From Limnohabitans sp. Rim8 (GTDB lineage Bacteria; Pseudomonadota; Gammaproteobacteria; Burkholderiales; Burkholderiaceae_C): a stretch of 64,000 bases of DNA. Positions 26,690 through 37,292 of the stretch are shown piece after piece. The DNA lies in contig CAMDFK010000013.1 of NCBI GenBank assembly GCA_945897465.1, forward strand, positions 1 to 64,000, written 5' to 3'. Position 1 is the first letter of the stretch, and each line of letters begins with the position of its first letter. The position numbers and the translations under genes were made by a program. Below the pieces are notes generated by a model. That model was given only the letters and a program-made list of their open reading frames with translations, made no database searches and was not told the DNA's origin.

Positions 26690-28243
26690 ATGTCGCGCAC
26701 CATCCCGATTCACCCCAGCACCGACGCCCCCAACCCTGCGGGGCTGCAAGGCGACGGCATGGGTTGCCACGCCGGTACCGAAGCCATGGTGGCCGCTGCC
26801 AAGCAAGCTGGAAAGTCCGAGGTGCTTGAGCAGTTCGCTCGCGACTACCCGCGCCAACCCGATGCCGGTCCACACGACCAGCCGCAAAGCATGTGCCCGG
26901 CCTTTGGATCGCTGCGTGTGGGTTTGCGCATGAAGCGCACCGCCACAATTCTGTCGGGCTCGGCCTGCTGCGTATATGGCTTGACGTTCACTTCGCATTT
27001 TTACGGCGCCCGCCGCAGTGTGGGCTACGTGCCCTTCAACTCCGAGTCGCTCGTCACAGGCAAGTTGTTTGAAGACATCCGCGAAGCGGTGCACGCCGAG
27101 GCCGACCCGAGTCAGGTCGACACCGTCATCATCATCAACCTGTGTGTGCCCACGGCCAGCGGTGTGCCCCTGCAGTTGCTGCCCAAAGAGATCAACGGCG
27201 TGCGCATCATCGGCATCGACGTGCCCGGTTTTGGGGTGCCTACGCATGCCGAAGCCAAAGACGTGCTGGCGGGGGCGATGCTGAAATACGCCCGCGAAGA
27301 AATCATCAGTGGCCCAGTGGCCGCACCCCGGGCGGGTCGCGGTGCCTTGCCAACCGTGGCTCTGCTGGGCGAAATGTTCCCAGCCGATCCGGTCATCATC
27401 GGGCAGATGCTCGCCCCCATGGGCCTGGCCGCAGGCCCGGTGGTGCCCACCCGCGAATGGCGCGAGTTGTACGCCGCGCTCGATTGCTCGGTGGCCGCCG
27501 CCATCCACCCGTTCTACACCGCCAGCGTGCGTGAGTTCAAAGCCGCCGGTCGCCCCATTGTGGGCTCGGCCCCGGTGGGCTTGGAAGGCACGCAAGACTG
27601 GTTGCAAAACATCGGCCAAGCCGCGGGCATTGCGCAGGCGCAGATCGACGTGGCGCGCAACCAGTCGCTGGCCCAAATGCGCGGCCTCTTGATGCAAAAA
27701 CCCATCTCTGGCCGCATCACCCTGAGTGGTTATGAAGGCTCCGAGTTGTTGGTGGGCCGCTTGCTCATCGAGTGCGGGGCCGATCTGCGCTACGTGGGCT
27801 CGGCCTGCCCAGCAACGGAATGGAACGCGCAAGACATCGCCTGGCTGCAAGCCAAGGGTGTCCAGGTGCAAATGCGTGCCTCGCTGGAGCAAGATCTGAA
27901 CGCCATGTACGAGTACCGGCCGCAGCTGGCCATCGGGACCACCCCGGTGGTGCAGATCGCCAAGCAAAACAGCGTGCCGTCTTTGTATTTCACCAACTTG
28001 ATTTCGGCCCGTCCTTTGATGGGTGTGGCGGGGGCTGGGTCTCTGGTGCAAGTGGTGCAAGCGGCCATGGGCAACCAAGCCCGCTTTGATGCCATGAAGG
28101 AATTCTTTGGCGATGTGGGTGCAGGTCACGCCGCAGGGGTTTGGGAATCGGTGCCCAAAGACCGGCCTGAGTTCAAGGCAGAAACCCGTCGCCAGATTGA
28201 AAAGCTCTTGAAAAAGCGCAAAGCCGAGGAGATGGGTTCATGA
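26690..28243 (+). CDS. bchY: Chlorophyllide a reductase subunit Y
   Basis: BchY is a NifD-like subunit of the catalytic BchYZ heterotetramer. The protein is 517 residues from the ATG at 26690. Conserved stretches include [17 protein letters not shown] with a cluster-ligand Cys, [18 protein letters not shown] and [17 protein letters not shown]. It overlaps bchZ by four bases. The frame is open far upstream inside bchX, but homology begins only at this ATG. Confidence 0.95.
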
Positions 28244-29766
28244 ACCAAATTTCTCCCCCTCCCAGCACGGTGGCCAAGCCCAAGTCGCCACTCATTCTCG
28301 ACCATGACCGCGCAGGCGGTTACTGGGGCGCGGTCTATGTGTTCACCGCCATCAAGGGTTTGCAAGTGGTGATCGACGGCCCGGTGGGCTGCGAAAACTT
28401 GCCCGTGACTTCGGTGTTGCATTACACCGACGCTTTACCCCCACACGAATTGCCGATTGTGGTGACGGGCCTGGCCGAAGAGCAGTTGGGCCGCGAAGGC
28501 ACCGAAGGCGCGATGAAACGGGCGCATGCCACCCTCGACCCCGAATTGCCCGCTGTGGTGGTGACCGGCTCGATCGCCGAGATGATCGGCGGCGGTGTCA
28601 CGCCAGAGGGCACCAACATCGCACGCTTCTTACCACGCACCATCGATGAGGACCAGTGGCAATGCGCCAACCGCGCCATGTACTGGCTCTGGAGCGAGTA
28701 CGGTCTGCGCAAAGTGCCTGCCCGCAAGCCTTTTGAAGACCGTCCTGTGGGCGAAAAGCCCCGTGTCAACATCATTGGCCCCTGCTACGGCACCTTCAAC
28801 AGCCCGAGCGACTTGGCCGAAATTCGCCGCTTGGTGCAAGGCATCGGCGCTGAAGTGAACATGGTCTTTCCGCTGACCAGCCACTTGGCCGATGTGTCGC
28901 GCTTGGTCGAAGCCGATGTGAACATTTGCATGTACCGCGAGTTTGGCCGCATGCTGTGCGAGGCGCTGGAGCGCCCTTATTTGCAAGCGCCGATTGGCCT
29001 GCACAGCACGACCAACTTCTTGCGCAAATTGGGCGAGCTGCTGCATCTGGACCCTGAACCCTTCATTGAGCGCGAGAAGCACACAACGCTCAAGCCCATG
29101 TGGGACCTGTGGCGCTCGGTTACCCAAGATTTTTTCGCCACCGCCAGCTTCGCCGTGGTGGCGGGTGAGACCTATTCGCGGGGCCTGAAAAACTTTCTTG
29201 AAAATGAAATGGGCTTGCCGTGCCGATTCAGCGTGTCACGTACCGCCGGCAACAAGACCGACAACGCCGCCGTGCGCGAGCTGGTCAAAACGCAAACGCC
29301 CTTGATCATGTTCGGCAGTTACAACGAGCGCATGTACCTGAGCGAGATCTCGGGCGGCAGCCCCATGCGCGCGGCCTTCATTCCCGCGTCCTTCCCCGGC
29401 GCCATCATCCGCCGCCACACCGGCACACCCTTCATGGGCTACAGCGGTGCGAGCTACCTGATTCAGGAGGTGTGCAATGCGTTGTTTGATGCGCTGTTCC
29501 ACATCCTGCCCTTGGGCACCGATATGGACAAAGTCGAAGCCACCCAAGCGCGTGGCATGACCCCGCCCAATGCCAGCTGGCAAGACCAGGCCCAGCAACG
29601 CCTGCGCGATGTGGTGCAAAGCCAGCCGGTTTTGGTGCAGATCTCAGCGGCCAAGCGTTTGCGCGACCAGGCCGAACAACTCTCGCAGGCCCAGGGCCAC
29701 AGCGAAGTGACCGAAGCCCATGTGAACGCGGCCAGTCGCGAACTGGGACTGGGGGTGGCGGCATGA
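28240..29766 (+). CDS. bchZ: Chlorophyllide a reductase subunit Z
   Basis: This NifK-like partner of BchY has 508 residues. Typical features are [39 protein letters not shown] with the cluster Cys, and [20 protein letters not shown]-terminal segment resembling the protochlorophyllide reductase helical domain ([20 protein letters not shown]) follows. Its stop overlaps the ATG of a 43-codon reading frame that leads into pufB. Confidence 0.95.
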
Positions 29767-29894
29767 GCCAAGTCACCAAACACACAAAAGTCGTTGCCGC
29801 CGCAAGCGGCACGGCGTATCCGATGTCGTGGCCTTTGGCTGCGGATGCCCATCTGCGCGGGCTGTGCGCAACCCGGGTCGTAAGGCCTCTTTAA
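29763..29894 (+). CDS. Possible 43-residue leader peptide between bchZ and pufB
   Basis: The ATG at 29763 overlaps the bchZ stop codon (ATGA) and opens a 43-codon frame ending with TAA at 29892-29894, 12 bases before the pufB start. The predicted peptide has no membrane segment and does not resemble Rhodobacter PufQ, which occupies this position in other puf operons. Part of the frame can form a small GCCGC-AA-GCGGC hairpin near 29790. It could be a coupled leader that sets pufB translation or pure spacer; coding is unproven. Confidence 0.3.
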
Positions 29895-29906: not shown

Positions 29907-30050
29907 ATGTCCACCAAGACATCAATTTCCGGACTCACCGATGAGGAAGCCCAGGAGTTCCACCACTACTGGATGCAGGGTCTAGTGGGCTTCACAGCAG
30001 TTGCTGTGTTGGCACACATCCTGGTCTGGGCGTGGCGTCCCTGGTTCTGA
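29907..30050 (+). CDS. pufB: Light-harvesting 1 beta polypeptide
   Basis: The 47-residue peptide has the LH1 beta pattern: an acidic N-terminus with [16 protein letters not shown], one transmembrane helix, the bacteriochlorophyll-binding His in [11 protein letters not shown], and the terminal WRPWF. It builds the ring around the reaction centre with PufA. It has a strong AAAAGGAG Shine-Dalgarno. An extra membrane gene, not pufA, follows it. Confidence 0.96.
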
Positions 30051-30094
30051 TTCAGAGCCTGATTTTTCAACCATAGATTGACGGAGTCACTGTC

Positions 30095-30319
30095 ATGCAA
30101 AACACCACCCACCTCAACGAGGCCCATTCGCGTGCGGATGAGTCTCCCGCTTACTGGTCCATTTTCCTCATCGGATTCGGATGCCTGTTTGTGGTCGTCG
30201 TACTGGCCAAACTGGTCGGCGTTCACTGGCGGGATCTGCTGCCTGGTGCAGAAGATGCCAAGAGCATGAGTCAGGGTGTGAAAGCGGCTGTGTACACCTT
30301 CATGTCCCACATCATTTAG
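30095..30319 (+). CDS. Single-span membrane protein between pufB and pufA; PufX-like or degenerate beta polypeptide
   Basis: This 74-residue gene has its own ACGGAG site and sits where pufA is expected. It has a hydrophilic N-terminus, one transmembrane helix (about 21-43) and a C-terminal amphipathic stretch ([17 protein letters not shown]). By eye the middle aligns with the adjacent LH1 beta: YW, a hydrophobic run, then VLAK-5 residues-WR against VLAH-5 residues-WR, so Lys replaces the chlorophyll-binding His and 25 extra residues follow. General layout (one helix, an LLP turn, C-terminal helix) also recalls Rhodobacter PufX, which opens the LH1 ring. I know of no named gene here; function is inference. 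Confidence 0.75.
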
Positions 30320-30329
30320 GAGATTCACC

Positions 30330-30539
30330 ATGTGGAGAATTTGGCGACTTTACGACCCTTTGCGTGCCATGGTACTGCAGGGTATTTTCTTGTTTGGCCT
30401 GGCCGCGATGATTCACCTCATCTTGCTCAGCACCAACAAATTCAACTGGCTCGACGGTGCGAAAAAACCCGTAGCAGCATCGGCGCAAAACTCGCCGCTG
30501 CCGACTTCGGTGGCATCACTCGTCCCACCCAAGTCCTGA
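30330..30539 (+). CDS. pufA: Light-harvesting 1 alpha polypeptide
   Basis: The LH1 alpha signature is clear: [14 protein letters not shown], a transmembrane helix with the chlorophyll-binding His in [12 protein letters not shown] and the following FNWLD. A long Ala/Pro/Ser-rich C-terminal tail brings it to 69 residues, longer than many alphas, and may be processed. TAGGAG just upstream is both the previous stop and the ribosome site. A weak stem-loop covers its stop codon. Confidence 0.96.
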
Positions 30540-30623: not shown

Positions 30624-31460
30624 ATGGCCATGCTGAATTTTGAGAAAAAGTACCGTGTTCGCGGTGGTACCCTGCTGGGTGGTGATTTGTTCGACTTTTG
30701 GGTCGGCCCGTTTTACGTCGGTTTTTTCGGCGTCACAACCCTTTTCTTTTCGTTCCTGGGCACGGCGCTCATTTTGTGGGGTGCCTCACAAGGCCCGACC
30801 TGGAACCTTTGGCAGATCAGCATCGCACCGCCTGATCTGTCGTATGGCCTGCGCTTTGCGCCCCTGATGGAAGGCGGCCTGTGGCAGCTCATCACGGTGT
30901 GCGCCATTGGCGCATTCGGCTCATGGATGATGCGCGAAGTTGAAATCTGTCGCAAGCTGGGCATGGGCTACCACGTCCCATTTGCCTTTGGTGTAGCCAT
31001 CTTGGGTTACGCCTCTTTGGTGGTGGTGCGTCCGGTACTCATGGGCGCTTGGGGTCACGGTTTCCCCTACGGTATTTACAGCCATCTGGACTGGGTGTCC
31101 AACGTGGGTTACCAGTACCTGCACTTTCACTACAACCCGGCGCACATGATCGCTGTGAGTTTCTTCTTCGCCAGCGTGTTTGCCCTGTCGCTGCACGGTG
31201 GTCTGGTTCTGTCCTCGACCAACCCTCAGCCTGGGCAAACGGTCAAAACGCCAGAGCATGAGGACACTTTTTTCCGCGATTTCATCGGTTATTCGGTGGG
31301 CACATTGGGTATCCACCGAGTCGGTCTCTTCCTGGCATTGGCGGCTGTCTTGTTCAGTGCGCTGTGCATTGTGCTCAGTGGCCCCTTCTGGAGCCGAGGC
31401 TGGCCCGAGTGGTGGAGCTGGTGGCTGAACCTGCCGATCTGGTCCCAGTGGCCAGTGTGA
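30624..31460 (+). CDS. pufL: Photosynthetic reaction centre L subunit
   Basis: The 278-residue protein has five transmembrane helices. Conserved features include the N-terminal [23 protein letters not shown] split over residues 5-27, the special-pair and accessory ligand region [13 protein letters not shown] and the iron/quinone-binding [10 protein letters not shown]. It binds half of the special pair and QA/QB cofactors with PufM in the inner membrane. It is followed 49 bases later by pufM. Confidence 0.97.
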
Positions 31461-31509: not shown

Positions 31510-32487
31510 ATGGCCGATTATCAAAACCTGTTCACCACGGTGCAAGCCGTGGGTCCAGTCCATCACGGGGTGGAGCTGGGTCACGGCAACAGTCCGCGCA
31601 CAGGACAACCCGTGATCAGTTACTGGCTCGGAAAGCTGGGCAATGCCCAGTTGGGTCCGATTTACCTGGGGGGGCTCGGTTTGGCCTCATTGGTGTGCGG
31701 TTTGATCGCATTCACCTTGATCGGCATGAACATGCTGGCCTCGGTCAACTACGACCCCATCCAGTTCGTGCGCCAGTTGTTCTGGCTGTCGCTGGAGCCG
31801 CCACCCCCAAGTTACGGCCTGAGTTTGCCTCCACTCAACCAAGGCGGGTGGTTTCTGATCGTGGGCCTGTTCCTCACGGCGTCCATTTTGCTTTGGTGGG
31901 CCCGTACTTACCGTCGCGCTGTCGAGCTGGGCATGGGCCTGCACATCGCTTGGGCTTTTGCCGCAGCCATCTGGTTGTTCTTGGTGCTGGGTCTGTTCCG
32001 CCCCATCTTGATGGGTTCTTGGGGTGAGGCCGTGCCTTACGGCATCTTTTCTCACCTGGACTGGACGGCGGCCTTCTCGCTGCGCTACGGCAACCTGTTC
32101 TACAACCCCTTCCATGCGCTGTCCATTGTGTTTTTGTATGGCTCAGCTCTGTTGTTCGCCATGCACGGTGCCACCATTTTGGCGGTGACCCGTTATGGCG
32201 GTGAGCGCGAGATCGAACAGATCACCGACCGTGGCACGGCCTCTGAGCGTGCTGCCCTGTTCTGGCGCTGGACCATGGGCTTCAATGCCACCATGGAGTC
32301 GATTCACCGCTGGGCTTGGTGGTTCGCCGTCCTGTGCCCCATCACGGGCGGCATTGGCATCTTGTTGACTGGCACCGTGGTGGACAACTGGTACCTGTGG
32401 GCCATCAAGCATGGTGTGGCACCACCGTACCCCGAGATTTTTCCAGGGATGGTTGACCCTGCTCTGAGCACTGGAGGCAAGCCATGA
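31510..32487 (+). CDS. pufM: Photosynthetic reaction centre M subunit
   Basis: The 325-residue partner of PufL has the typical start [11 protein letters not shown], the ligand region [20 protein letters not shown] and the iron-binding [10 protein letters not shown]. Five transmembrane helices are visible. The AGGAGT ribosome site precedes the ATG. Its stop overlaps the pufC start by four bases, matching a reaction centre with a bound cytochrome subunit. Confidence 0.97.
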
Positions 32488-33575
32488 ACATGAATTTTTC
32501 TTTCTCTTCTGGCTGGACCGGCCGTATGGTCAAAGCTTTGGGCTTGGCTTTGGCGGGTCTGGTTTTGGCAGGCTGCGAGCGGCCCATTCCAGAATCGGTC
32601 CAAAGCGGCTACCGGGGCACCGGCATGGTTCAGGTCTATAACCCCCGCCTGCTCGAAGTCAAAACCGCGCTCAACCAACCACCACCCGTCATTCCGTCTC
32701 CCGGCTCTGAAGGCCCCAAGGCATCAGAGGCTTACCAAAACGTCAAAGTTTTGGGTAATTTGAGTGTGGGTGAATTCAACCGTCTGATGGTGTCCATGAC
32801 CAATTGGGTGGCGCCTAAGGAGGGCTGCGCCTATTGTCACGCGCTGCCCAACTTTGCAGACGACAGCAAGTACACCAAGGTGGTGGCCCGTCGCATGGTC
32901 GAGATGACGCAGCACATCAACGCCGACTGGCAACCCCATGTGGCTCAGACCGGGGTGACCTGCTACACCTGCCACCGTGGTGAGCCCGTGCCCAGTGCCA
33001 TCTGGTTCAAGTCCAACCCGCAGCCTTATGGTTCGAACTTCATGGGTGACAAGGCCGGACAAAACGAGCCTTCCGCCGTGGTCAATTTGTCATCGCTGCC
33101 GAACGACCCGTTCACCCCGTTTTTGCTGGACAAGCAAAATATTCGTGTGAACGGCCCTACAGCGCTGCCCTCGGGCAACCGCCAGTCGATCAAGCAGGCT
33201 GAGTGGACCTATGGCCTGATGACGCACATGTCGACTTCGCTGGGTGTGAACTGTACTTATTGCCACAATACGCAGTCTTTCCAAGACTGGGAAAACAGCC
33301 CACCCCAACGCGTGACCGCCTGGCATGGCATTCGCATGGCGCGGGACCTGAACCTGACCTACATGGAGCCTTTGACGGAAGTCTTCCCGGCGCACCGCAA
33401 AGGTCCAACGGGTGATGTGGCCAAGCTCAACTGTGCCACCTGCCACCAAGGGGCTTACAAGCCACTCAACGGCGCACAAATGGCCAAGGACTTTCCTGAA
33501 TTGCTCAAGCCTGCTCTGGCTGCAGCCAAGGTGGCCGCAGCGCAATCCGCAGCACCTGCTCCAGCCTCCAAGTAG
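32484..33575 (+). CDS. pufC: Reaction-centre tetraheme cytochrome c subunit
   Basis: PufC donates electrons to the oxidised special pair on the periplasmic side. Four CxxCH heme motifs are present: CAYCH (about residue 115), CYTCH (159), CTYCH (256) and CATCH (316). The N-terminal hydrophobic segment ends in LVLAGCERP, a lipobox, so the cytochrome should be anchored by a diacylglyceryl-Cys. An Ala-rich C-terminus follows the last heme. Length is 363 residues. Confidence 0.97.
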
Positions 33576-36828: not shown

Positions 36829-36932
36829 GATGAACAACCTTGAATGTGATGTCAAGGCAACCCCATTCCTGGCCGTGGTGGCCAAGAATAGCCCTCGTGC
36901 GGGCCGAGCACGTCTTCTGCAAGGAGAAAACG

Positions 36933-37085
36933 ATGTCTAACTCAGACAAAGTCTGGCCAACGGGACTGACCGAGGCCGAATCGGAGGAGATTCACCGAAA
37001 TCTCATCCAGGGTACGCAGATTTTCGGCATGATTGCCGCATTTGCCCATCTGCTGGCCTACATTTACTCACCCTGGCTCAAGTAA
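36933..37085 (+). CDS. pucB: Light-harvesting 2 beta polypeptide
   Basis: The 50-residue peptide has the LH beta pattern: TGLTEAESEEIHRNLIQG with the conserved His, one membrane helix with the B850-type ligand His in AFAHLLAYIYSPWL. The strong AAGGAG Shine-Dalgarno is 7 bases upstream. It differs from PufB in its C-terminus and is paired with an LH2-type alpha, so it belongs to the peripheral antenna. There is a 104-base gap after crtC but no clear PpsR-type site there. Confidence 0.95.
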   Translation: MSNSDKVWPTGLTEAESEEIHRNLIQGTQIFGMIAAFAHLLAYIYSPWLK

Positions 37086-37097
37086 GGGAGATTCATC

Positions 37098-37292
37098 ATG
37101 ATCTACTCGAAAATGTGGTGTGTGGTGAAACCTTCGGTGGGCATTCCGGTGTTCATTGCGGCTGTGGCGATCTCGTCGTTCAGCGTGCATTTGGCCCTGA
37201 CGACCAACACCACCTGGGTGAAAGACTTTCTGAACGGTGGTACCAAAGTGGTCGCTGCGGCGCCTGCTGCGGATGCTGCGGTGAAGAAGTAA
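37098..37292 (+). CDS. pucA: Light-harvesting 2 alpha polypeptide with F44-L45
   Basis: The 64-residue alpha aligns without gaps with the Rhodoblastus acidophilus LH2 alpha: W7, H31 (chlorophyll ligand), W40 and G47-G48 coincide. Positions 44 and 45, Tyr-Trp in the B800-850 complex, are Phe-Leu here, as in the B800-820 (LH3) form, where loss of hydrogen bonds to the acetyl groups shifts absorption to the blue. An Ala-rich tail follows. It lies 12 bases after pucB. Confidence 0.95.
   Translation: MIYSKMWCVVKPSVGIPVFIAAVAISSFSVHLALTTNTTWVKDFLNGGTKVVAAAPAADAAVKK

Follow-up and report, generated by a model that had tools for sequence, protein, structure and literature searches.

In the window, which is the whole stretch of 64,000 nucleotides of Limnohabitans DNA analysed here, the genes for the two LH1 antenna polypeptides, pufB and pufA, are separated by a third gene, denoted X below, which is a real, strongly conserved gene homologous to the LH1 beta subunit. 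The comparisons described here establish this homology, the absence of the histidine that serves as the pigment ligand, purifying selection on X, a C-terminal tail that X has in common with a tailed form of LH1 beta, and a single visible carrier of such a tail per operon in the Burkholderiales. X is a working protein and, with a probability that we put at about one half, it is a copy of an LH1 beta of the tailed type that has given up pigment binding, has kept the tail, and works as an assembly or tetrapyrrole helper of the PufQ type.

A beta-like gene without the pigment ligand between pufB and pufA

The preliminary description of this DNA had pointed to a 74-codon gene with a ribosome site of its own at this place, and the gene is confirmed both by the GGAG ahead of it (Table 1) and by 80 relative loci. 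A search of genome contigs returned 97 relatives of X, 80 of which were taken for locus analysis, and their record titles name Limnohabitans, Rubrivivax, Piscinibacter, Methylibium, Hylemonella and Curvibacter as well as many metagenome bins. All 80 relative loci have pufA 10-18 nt downstream of X, with two of these pufA genes truncated by a contig end, and 79 have pufB upstream of X, the remaining contig beginning just before X; the spacing between X and pufA is 10-12 nt in 80 of 81 loci and 11-22 nt in 35 other X loci of a wider set. The searches with Pfam and NCBIfam models gave no match of its own for X, and X was not found in the plasmid collection. The neighbouring genes bchZ, pufB, pufA, pufL, pufM and pufC all exceed the cut-offs of their NCBIfam models, and pufC follows pufM in 67 of the 68 X loci with room to see it, the exception being L078.

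Table 1. Features of the puf operon region; positions are those of the window
Feature	Positions	Strand	Remarks
bchZ	28240..29766	+	TIGR02014, E 1.4e-229; upstream neighbour
Predicted three-stem leader RNA upstream of pufB	29827..29888	+	Stems 29827-29843, 29854-29870, 29875-29888; context, outside X
pufB, LH1 beta, short form	29907..30050	+	NF040862, E 2.1e-23; 47 aa, His37, tail absent
GGAG ribosome site of X	30083..30086	+	Read in the sequence; close relatives keep GGAG
X (inserted gene)	30095..30319	+	74-aa single-span protein; ATG 30095, stop TAG 30317-30319
Membrane-span region of X, residues 19-44, beta-like	30149..30226	+	dN/dS 0.131
Lys39 codon of X	30209..30211	+	Position of the bacteriochlorophyll-ligand His of beta; never H in relatives
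C-terminal tail of X, residues 45-74 (WR..LPGAE..KS)	30227..30316	+	Most constrained part; common to tailed LH1 beta
TAGGAG	30317..30322	+	X stop codon overlapping the pufA ribosome site
pufA, LH1 alpha	30330..30539	+	NF040861, E 1.5e-17
pufL	30624..31460	+	TIGR01157, E 3.7e-129
pufM	31510..32487	+	TIGR01115, E 9.5e-164
pufC, reaction-centre cytochrome subunit	32484..33575	+	NF040706, E 2e-146

Sequence comparison indicates that X shares common ancestry with LH1 beta. The family profile of X was built from alignment A1, which holds 35 of the 36 representatives of loci L001-L081 (L078, with 69 residues, was excluded); alignments A2-A6 consist of hand-picked rows, a subset of the rows found. An hmmsearch of the PDB with this profile returned 43 sequences at E up to 10, of which 39 are antenna chains and four are antibody chains that match by chance; the best match is a long LH1 beta chain (8z81_B, E 1.5e-14), and X itself is absent among the chains matched. 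Comparison with hhalign gave 91.7% (E 7.6e-7) against the local short PufB and 99.3% (E 2.9e-20) against long betas, and the score with long beta, 99.8, stands against a maximum of 20.2 in 60 shuffles of the columns that preserve both composition and hydrophobic class. The alignment with LH1 beta that the preliminary description had made by eye therefore holds, on the strength of the PDB beta chain and of PufB alike. Derivation of X from alpha was ruled out, hhalign with PufA giving 0.8%. The likeness to PufB, and above all to the long betas, lies in the single span, the WR at the span end, the LPG and the tail, whereas X differs in the missing His ligand and does not keep the N-terminal SGLT..EA.EFH block of LH1 beta. 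X also stays below the cut-off of the pufB model NF040862, with which 16 of the 35 members reach E 1 or better (best 2e-5), the window X not being one of them; PF00556 matched neither the window X nor appeared among the families matched by the 35 members.

The Lys39 of X lies six residues ahead of the conserved Trp, which matches the position of His in PufB. Over 81 X loci (80 relatives and the window, 73 distinct proteins), the residue at the ligand position is K in 41, Q in 22, S in 12, N in two, T in two, R in one, E in one and H in none, and PufB retains its His ligand in 80 of 80 loci; in the 38 X genomes of the Burkholderiales sample described below, the position is occupied by Q (29), T (4), S (2), K, G and L (one each), so all 38 are non-His. 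The replacement of the chlorophyll-binding His by Lys, already noticed in the window, is thus borne out across the family by non-His residues at 81 of 81 loci, and together with the homology it supports the notion of a beta-like polypeptide without a pigment ligand. Chain 4 of PDB entry 8k5o, a single-chain, 105-residue 'antenna complex alpha/beta subunit domain-containing protein' that the X profile matches at E 0.0074, is a possible precedent for a beta-like subunit present in one copy.

An ORF at this place was already known, and the earlier statement that pufA comes immediately after pufB in all puf operons is wrong because such an ORF is in print for both Rubrivivax and Roseateles. The puf operon of Rubrivivax gelatinosus is reported to contain two ORFs with no assigned function, ORF2 being located upstream of pufA (PMC12817894), and ORF74 of Roseateles depolymerans, which is placed between pufB and pufA by its locus number, is reported to be carried on the major 1-kb puf transcript together with both and to be among the three loci most reduced without the sigma factor SP70 (PMC10037100). 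On place and length alone, we take X to be ORF2 and ORF74: the place is the same, ORF74 equals X in length by its name, and the Rubrivivax loci in our set (L064-L066) carry X between pufB and pufA. In the accessible text of PMC12817894, ORF2 is compared with PufA only, and pufA2 of Gemmatimonadota is reported not to be derived from it. What is new here is the identity of X as a beta relative with a shared tail. The literature searched, from which subscription papers were mostly absent, yielded no paper linking the ORF to beta or to PufQ, and no description of a reciprocal occurrence of X and genes in the position of pufQ was found in the searchable literature.

Several other features of the surroundings were observed. 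Three predicted leader stems between bchZ and pufB are kept across 12 aligned loci, with two-sided changes in 2 of 18 pairs; the last stem, of the GGCC-GCAA-GGCC type, lies directly ahead of the pufB ribosome site, and an Rfam search with 29827-29888 gave nothing near a gathering score. A 43-codon ORF (29763-29894) shares an ATGA overlap with the bchZ stop, an arrangement also reported for Rhodobacter pufQ (PMC5725709). Pfam and NCBIfam models gave no match for this ORF, the half of it that is conserved falls on the leader stems, and not all of the 18 relatives read keep the frame; the ORF may correspond to Rubrivivax 'ORF1'. Elsewhere in the photosynthesis gene cluster, a second beta-like ORF (36840-37085; NF040862, 65.7 bits with a cut-off of 61) and a weakly alpha-like ORF (37098-37292) are perhaps the LH2 genes that Limnohabitans reportedly keeps within this cluster. 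The C-terminal part of PufA contains SPLP, which fits the [A/S]-[P/A]-[L/M/I]-P motif that is said to touch the cytochrome subunit in Rhodopila.

The C-terminal tail and its carriers

The preliminary description allowed for the possibilities that the frame is not conserved in relatives and that dN/dS is near 1; the frame is kept in the 80 loci, and the dN/dS of X, estimated over 36 close loci including the window, is 0.117, far below 1, compared with 0.030 for pufB and 0.078 for pufA (over 34 loci). By region, the ratio is 0.224 for the N-terminus, 0.131 for the span and only 0.029 for the tail, and the 14 invariant columns among the 35 members of A1 are all located between Trp45 and Met70. 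Thus, the strongest constraint on X falls on the C-terminal tail, not on the beta-like span. The C-terminal part had been described as amphipathic; the tail is present, but its amphipathicity is modest, its hydrophobic moment being equalled by 6% of shuffles.

The distribution of the tail was followed in a Burkholderiales sample of 399 genomes, 48 of which have reaction-centre genes. X is found between pufB and pufA in 38 of the 48 (in G052, the contig ends before pufA). Five more (G029, G166, G180, G254 and G284) lack X and have a tailed beta, that is, a long, His-bearing PufB whose tail resembles that of X. In three (G069, G189 and G220), PufB is short, X is absent, and the gap from bchZ to pufB, where pufQ lies elsewhere, holds a single-span ORF, which we call a pufQ-position gene; the last two (G147 and G301) stop at a contig edge and are not assessable. 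Each of the 46 assessable Burkholderiales phototrophs shows one tail carrier, the carriers standing in for one another from genome to genome, and a single genus (f30 g38) contains both X genomes and tailed-beta genomes.

The end of bchZ can be seen in 33 of the 38 X loci (the exceptions are L084, L087, L095, L096 and L116), and in 118 X loci (80 relatives and the 38) the pufQ-position profile gives no E value below 0.7 for any ORF apart from X and PufB. When the same profile was run against 40 whole genomes, 21 of them with X, X was the best match in 18 of the 21 and the sole match in the window genome; in G017 it tied with a stop-containing stretch, and in G342 and G157 it scored below PufB. 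None of the 21 X genomes had a match between bchZ and pufB, and the 140-nt gap between these genes in the window is below the room needed for a pufQ-sized gene.

Outside the order, 32 phototrophs were examined, 5 in a class sample of 369 and 27 in a phylum sample of 398; 23 of them have a pufQ-position ORF (10 in family f263, which we take to be Rhodobacteraceae because Pfam PufQ matches all three of its members tested) and none has X. In the other nine, no carrier was found, the whole-genome search with the pufQ-position profile giving only beta and scattered weak matches. The accessible part of PMC12654162 reports pufQ to be absent from Halieaceae and Sphingomonadales, and in Gemmatimonadota, the gene cluster of which resembles that of Rubrivivax, both ORFs are held to be deleted (PMC12817894). 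From the nine carrier-less phototrophs and the loss of the ORF in Gemmatimonadota, it follows that a carrier is not needed everywhere.

The X tail profile was run against 2975 real ORFs and 14875 shuffled decoys. It retrieved the tailed beta of each of the five genomes (four different proteins, those of L156 and L159 being identical) with E values between 3e-10 and 4e-9, the best decoy having E 1 and the other long betas matching more weakly (best E 7e-5). When the distal X tail alone was used, the five tailed betas were still the top non-X matches (E 2e-4 to 0.01; best decoy 0.7) and, conversely, the distal 25 residues of the tailed-beta tail (four sequences) retrieved the window X at E 9e-5, the best decoy being at E 2.1. 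The tailed-beta tail also matched the pufQ-position proteins of L120, L155 and L124 (E 1.4e-4, 5.5e-4 and 1.5e-3, respectively), the remaining pufQ-position proteins in the search set being unmatched. In hhalign, the tailed-beta tail reached 97.2% against the tail of X and 94.2% against that of the pufQ-position proteins, whereas the latter two compared directly gave 0.7%, which is not significant, and the pufQ-position tail profile recovered, above decoys, only its own kind. Because the tailed-beta tail matches both of the others and a direct match is absent, the three tails are tied to one another via the tailed beta. The X of G052 (L116:2772-3011) has a tail, GVRKAANSVIPLMFM, that is intermediate between the typical tail of X and the tails of tailed betas and pufQ-position proteins; the PufL and PufM of this genome, encoded on its reaction-centre contig L117, cluster with f23, a pufQ-position lineage (support 80).

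Relation to PufQ and evolutionary history

PufQ of Rhodobacter sphaeroides is reported to bind ferrochelatase and to steer porphyrin toward bacteriochlorophyll, with 6% of the pigment remaining upon its deletion; its span and C-terminus are conserved, its N-terminus is divergent, and its C-terminus is predicted to be cytoplasmic (PMC5725709). The name pufQ has also been given to the gene between bchZ and pufB of Halorhodospira (PMC8877833). The Pfam PufQ model (PF05398) was above its cut-off in three of 31 genomes, all in f263, and 13 pufQ-position proteins from outside f263 gave one weak match to it (E 0.061). These proteins have their place, size, single span and constrained C-terminus in common with PufQ, but the sequence link is weak (33% with f263 PufQ; score 23.5, with a maximum of 20.0 in 60 shuffles). 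One pufQ-position protein, not X, has a chance-level match to PF11511 (E 0.16).

X resembles PufQ and the pufQ-position proteins in size, the single span, the divergent N-terminus, the constrained C-terminus and membership in the same operon; over the full length, hhalign of X with the pufQ-position proteins gives 97.9% (E 4.9e-13), with a score of 65.8 compared with at most 24.1 in shuffles, and in the loci examined X and a pufQ-position gene were never seen together. In contrast to these genes, X lies downstream of pufB rather than in the bchZ-pufB gap that is typical of pufQ, and its link to the Pfam-recognised PufQ is weak (20.7%). PF05398 matches neither the window X nor any of the 35 X members, so X as a plain PufQ in the Pfam sense was ruled out; in the window genome, this model has one match only, below the cut-off and inside a 777-residue frame on another contig. 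The C-terminus of LH1 beta is periplasmic. The charges flanking the span of X leave its membrane orientation undecided and, if the tails are homologous, the orientation of either PufQ or beta must be revised.

The pufL and pufM tree comprised 96 loci, 20 of the 81 in the first set, which includes the window, and 76 of the 80 in L082-L161; L114-L116 were excluded because of contig ends, and L091 and L071 because a usable pufL was missing. The Burkholderiales operons, 56 with X, four of the five with tailed betas and three with pufQ-position genes, form one group (SH-aLRT 90), the base of which is without resolution, and the fifth tailed beta (L127) falls outside. At least three changes are needed for X on this tree, and the AU test does not reject a single origin (p 0.59 without L117 and 0.70 with it). 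The junction between tailed beta and pufA, 11-12 nt in the five loci, resembles that between X and pufA, with the stop overlapping GGAG; long and short betas elsewhere often end 10-16 nt ahead of pufA as well, so the spacing is not specific, and the junction of X fits a beta origin without being proof of it.

Possible functions of X

The analogy with PufX that was originally proposed is not borne out. Protein-W and LH1 gamma are small extra membrane proteins of RC-LH1 complexes. PufX and protein-U (PufY) are reported to be such proteins as well. X has no sequence match to any of the four: none of the 43 PDB matches at E up to 10 bears the name of one of them, and PF11511 (PufX) is absent from the families that the 35 X members match at E up to 1. 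The profile comparison suggested at the outset, against LH beta, PufX and PufY, thus found beta chains and neither of the other two. All 22 Rhodobacteraceae that lack pufC reportedly carry pufX, the C-terminus of which is said to overlap the place of the N-terminal loop of the cytochrome. With no PufX similarity and with pufC present at 67 of 68 loci, membership of X in the PufX family was ruled out and, because pufX accompanies the loss of pufC whereas pufC is present here, a PufX-like role for X as a structural subunit is a weak proposition. Of the preliminary interpretation, the relative of beta without a pigment ligand stands and the PufX analogue does not.

The reading that we favour can be laid out as follows. 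A long, tailed LH1 beta would have been copied, with one copy, X, giving up bacteriochlorophyll binding and retaining the C-terminal tail, and the pigment-binding beta of the same operon would have lost its tail, resulting in a division of labour. X would be produced together with beta and alpha and would sit in the membrane as a beta polypeptide does; its tail would hold a conserved partner, for which ferrochelatase, an assembly factor and the nascent ring are candidates, and would thereby match pigment supply or assembly to the rate at which the ring is made. Here we infer the direction of the split, the membrane orientation, the helper role and the identity of the partner. A PufQ-type helper is suggested by the presence of one carrier in each of the 46 assessable operons and by the similarity of the X and pufQ-position profiles. 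This helper reading is weakened by the failure of the X and pufQ-position tails to match directly, by the weak tie of the pufQ-position proteins outside f263 to PufQ, by the predicted cytoplasmic location of the C-terminus of PufQ as opposed to the periplasmic one of beta, and by the 9 of 32 outside phototrophs in which no carrier was found and the reported loss of the ORF in Gemmatimonadota. It is weakened also by the major transcript and the strong induction of ORF74, which suit a structural subunit at least equally well.

Such a subunit of the RC-LH1 complex, pigment-less and beta-like, would replace one or a few betas or stand beside the ring, where X might create a gap for quinone exchange or its tail might anchor the cytochrome or the reaction centre, as PufX, protein-W and protein-U do elsewhere. 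The beta homology with the loss of His, the location of the gene between pufB and pufA with its stop overlapping the pufA ribosome site, and a near-invariant tail that suits a fixed contact all agree with this, as do the reported presence of Roseateles ORF74 on the 1-kb transcript with pufB and pufA and its place among the three most changed loci (PMC10037100). However, similarity to PufX, protein-U, protein-W or gamma did not emerge from the PDB search and X itself was not among the matched chains, pufC is present in X operons, and the operons with a tailed beta manage without X even though their beta keeps its His; we regard a structural role as the strong rival to the helper reading, possible but on the doubtful side.

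The failure of X and the pufQ-position gene to occur together would also be expected if X were not a duplicated beta but a pufQ-position gene that was relocated between pufB and pufA and drawn toward beta by recombination, and the pufQ-position proteins are indeed beta-like (97.6% with long beta in hhalign; for one of them the NCBIfam pufB model gives E 0.0012, which is below the cut-off). This origin is improbable, given that X is nearer to long beta (99.8) than to the pufQ-position proteins (65.8) and that its tail matches that of the tailed beta, not the pufQ-position tail. Far less probable still is a translational spacer, that is, a frame the reading of which couples and sets the translation of pufA while the peptide does little. 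The overlap of the X stop with the pufA ribosome site and the 10-12 nt spacing in 80 of 81 loci are what such a device calls for, but the tail has a dN/dS as low as that of pufB, 14 columns are invariant among 35 members, and the tailed beta has a similar junction without X, the spacing in other X genomes ranging from 11 to 22 nt.

Beyond the proposed helper role of X, the pufQ-position proteins, the tailed LH1 beta and X might all belong to one superfamily, in which one functional tail has moved between three genes; we offer this tentatively, with the odds somewhat against it. If true, PufQ would be an ancient pigment-less paralogue of LH1 beta with a periplasmic tail, the proposed contact site of ferrochelatase on PufQ would need revision, and the Burkholderiales that lack pufQ would carry PufQ in another form, some of them within every beta of the ring. 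If X is instead a ring subunit, it would represent a new kind of RC-LH1 accessory in widespread freshwater phototrophs. The balance between haem and bacteriochlorophyll in purple bacteria without PufQ is left open in the accessible text of PMC5725709. The pattern of tail carriers suggests a common origin of LH1 beta, the pufQ-position proteins and X, and it provides a candidate answer, testable in culturable strains, both to the question of this balance and to that of the ORF upstream of pufA.
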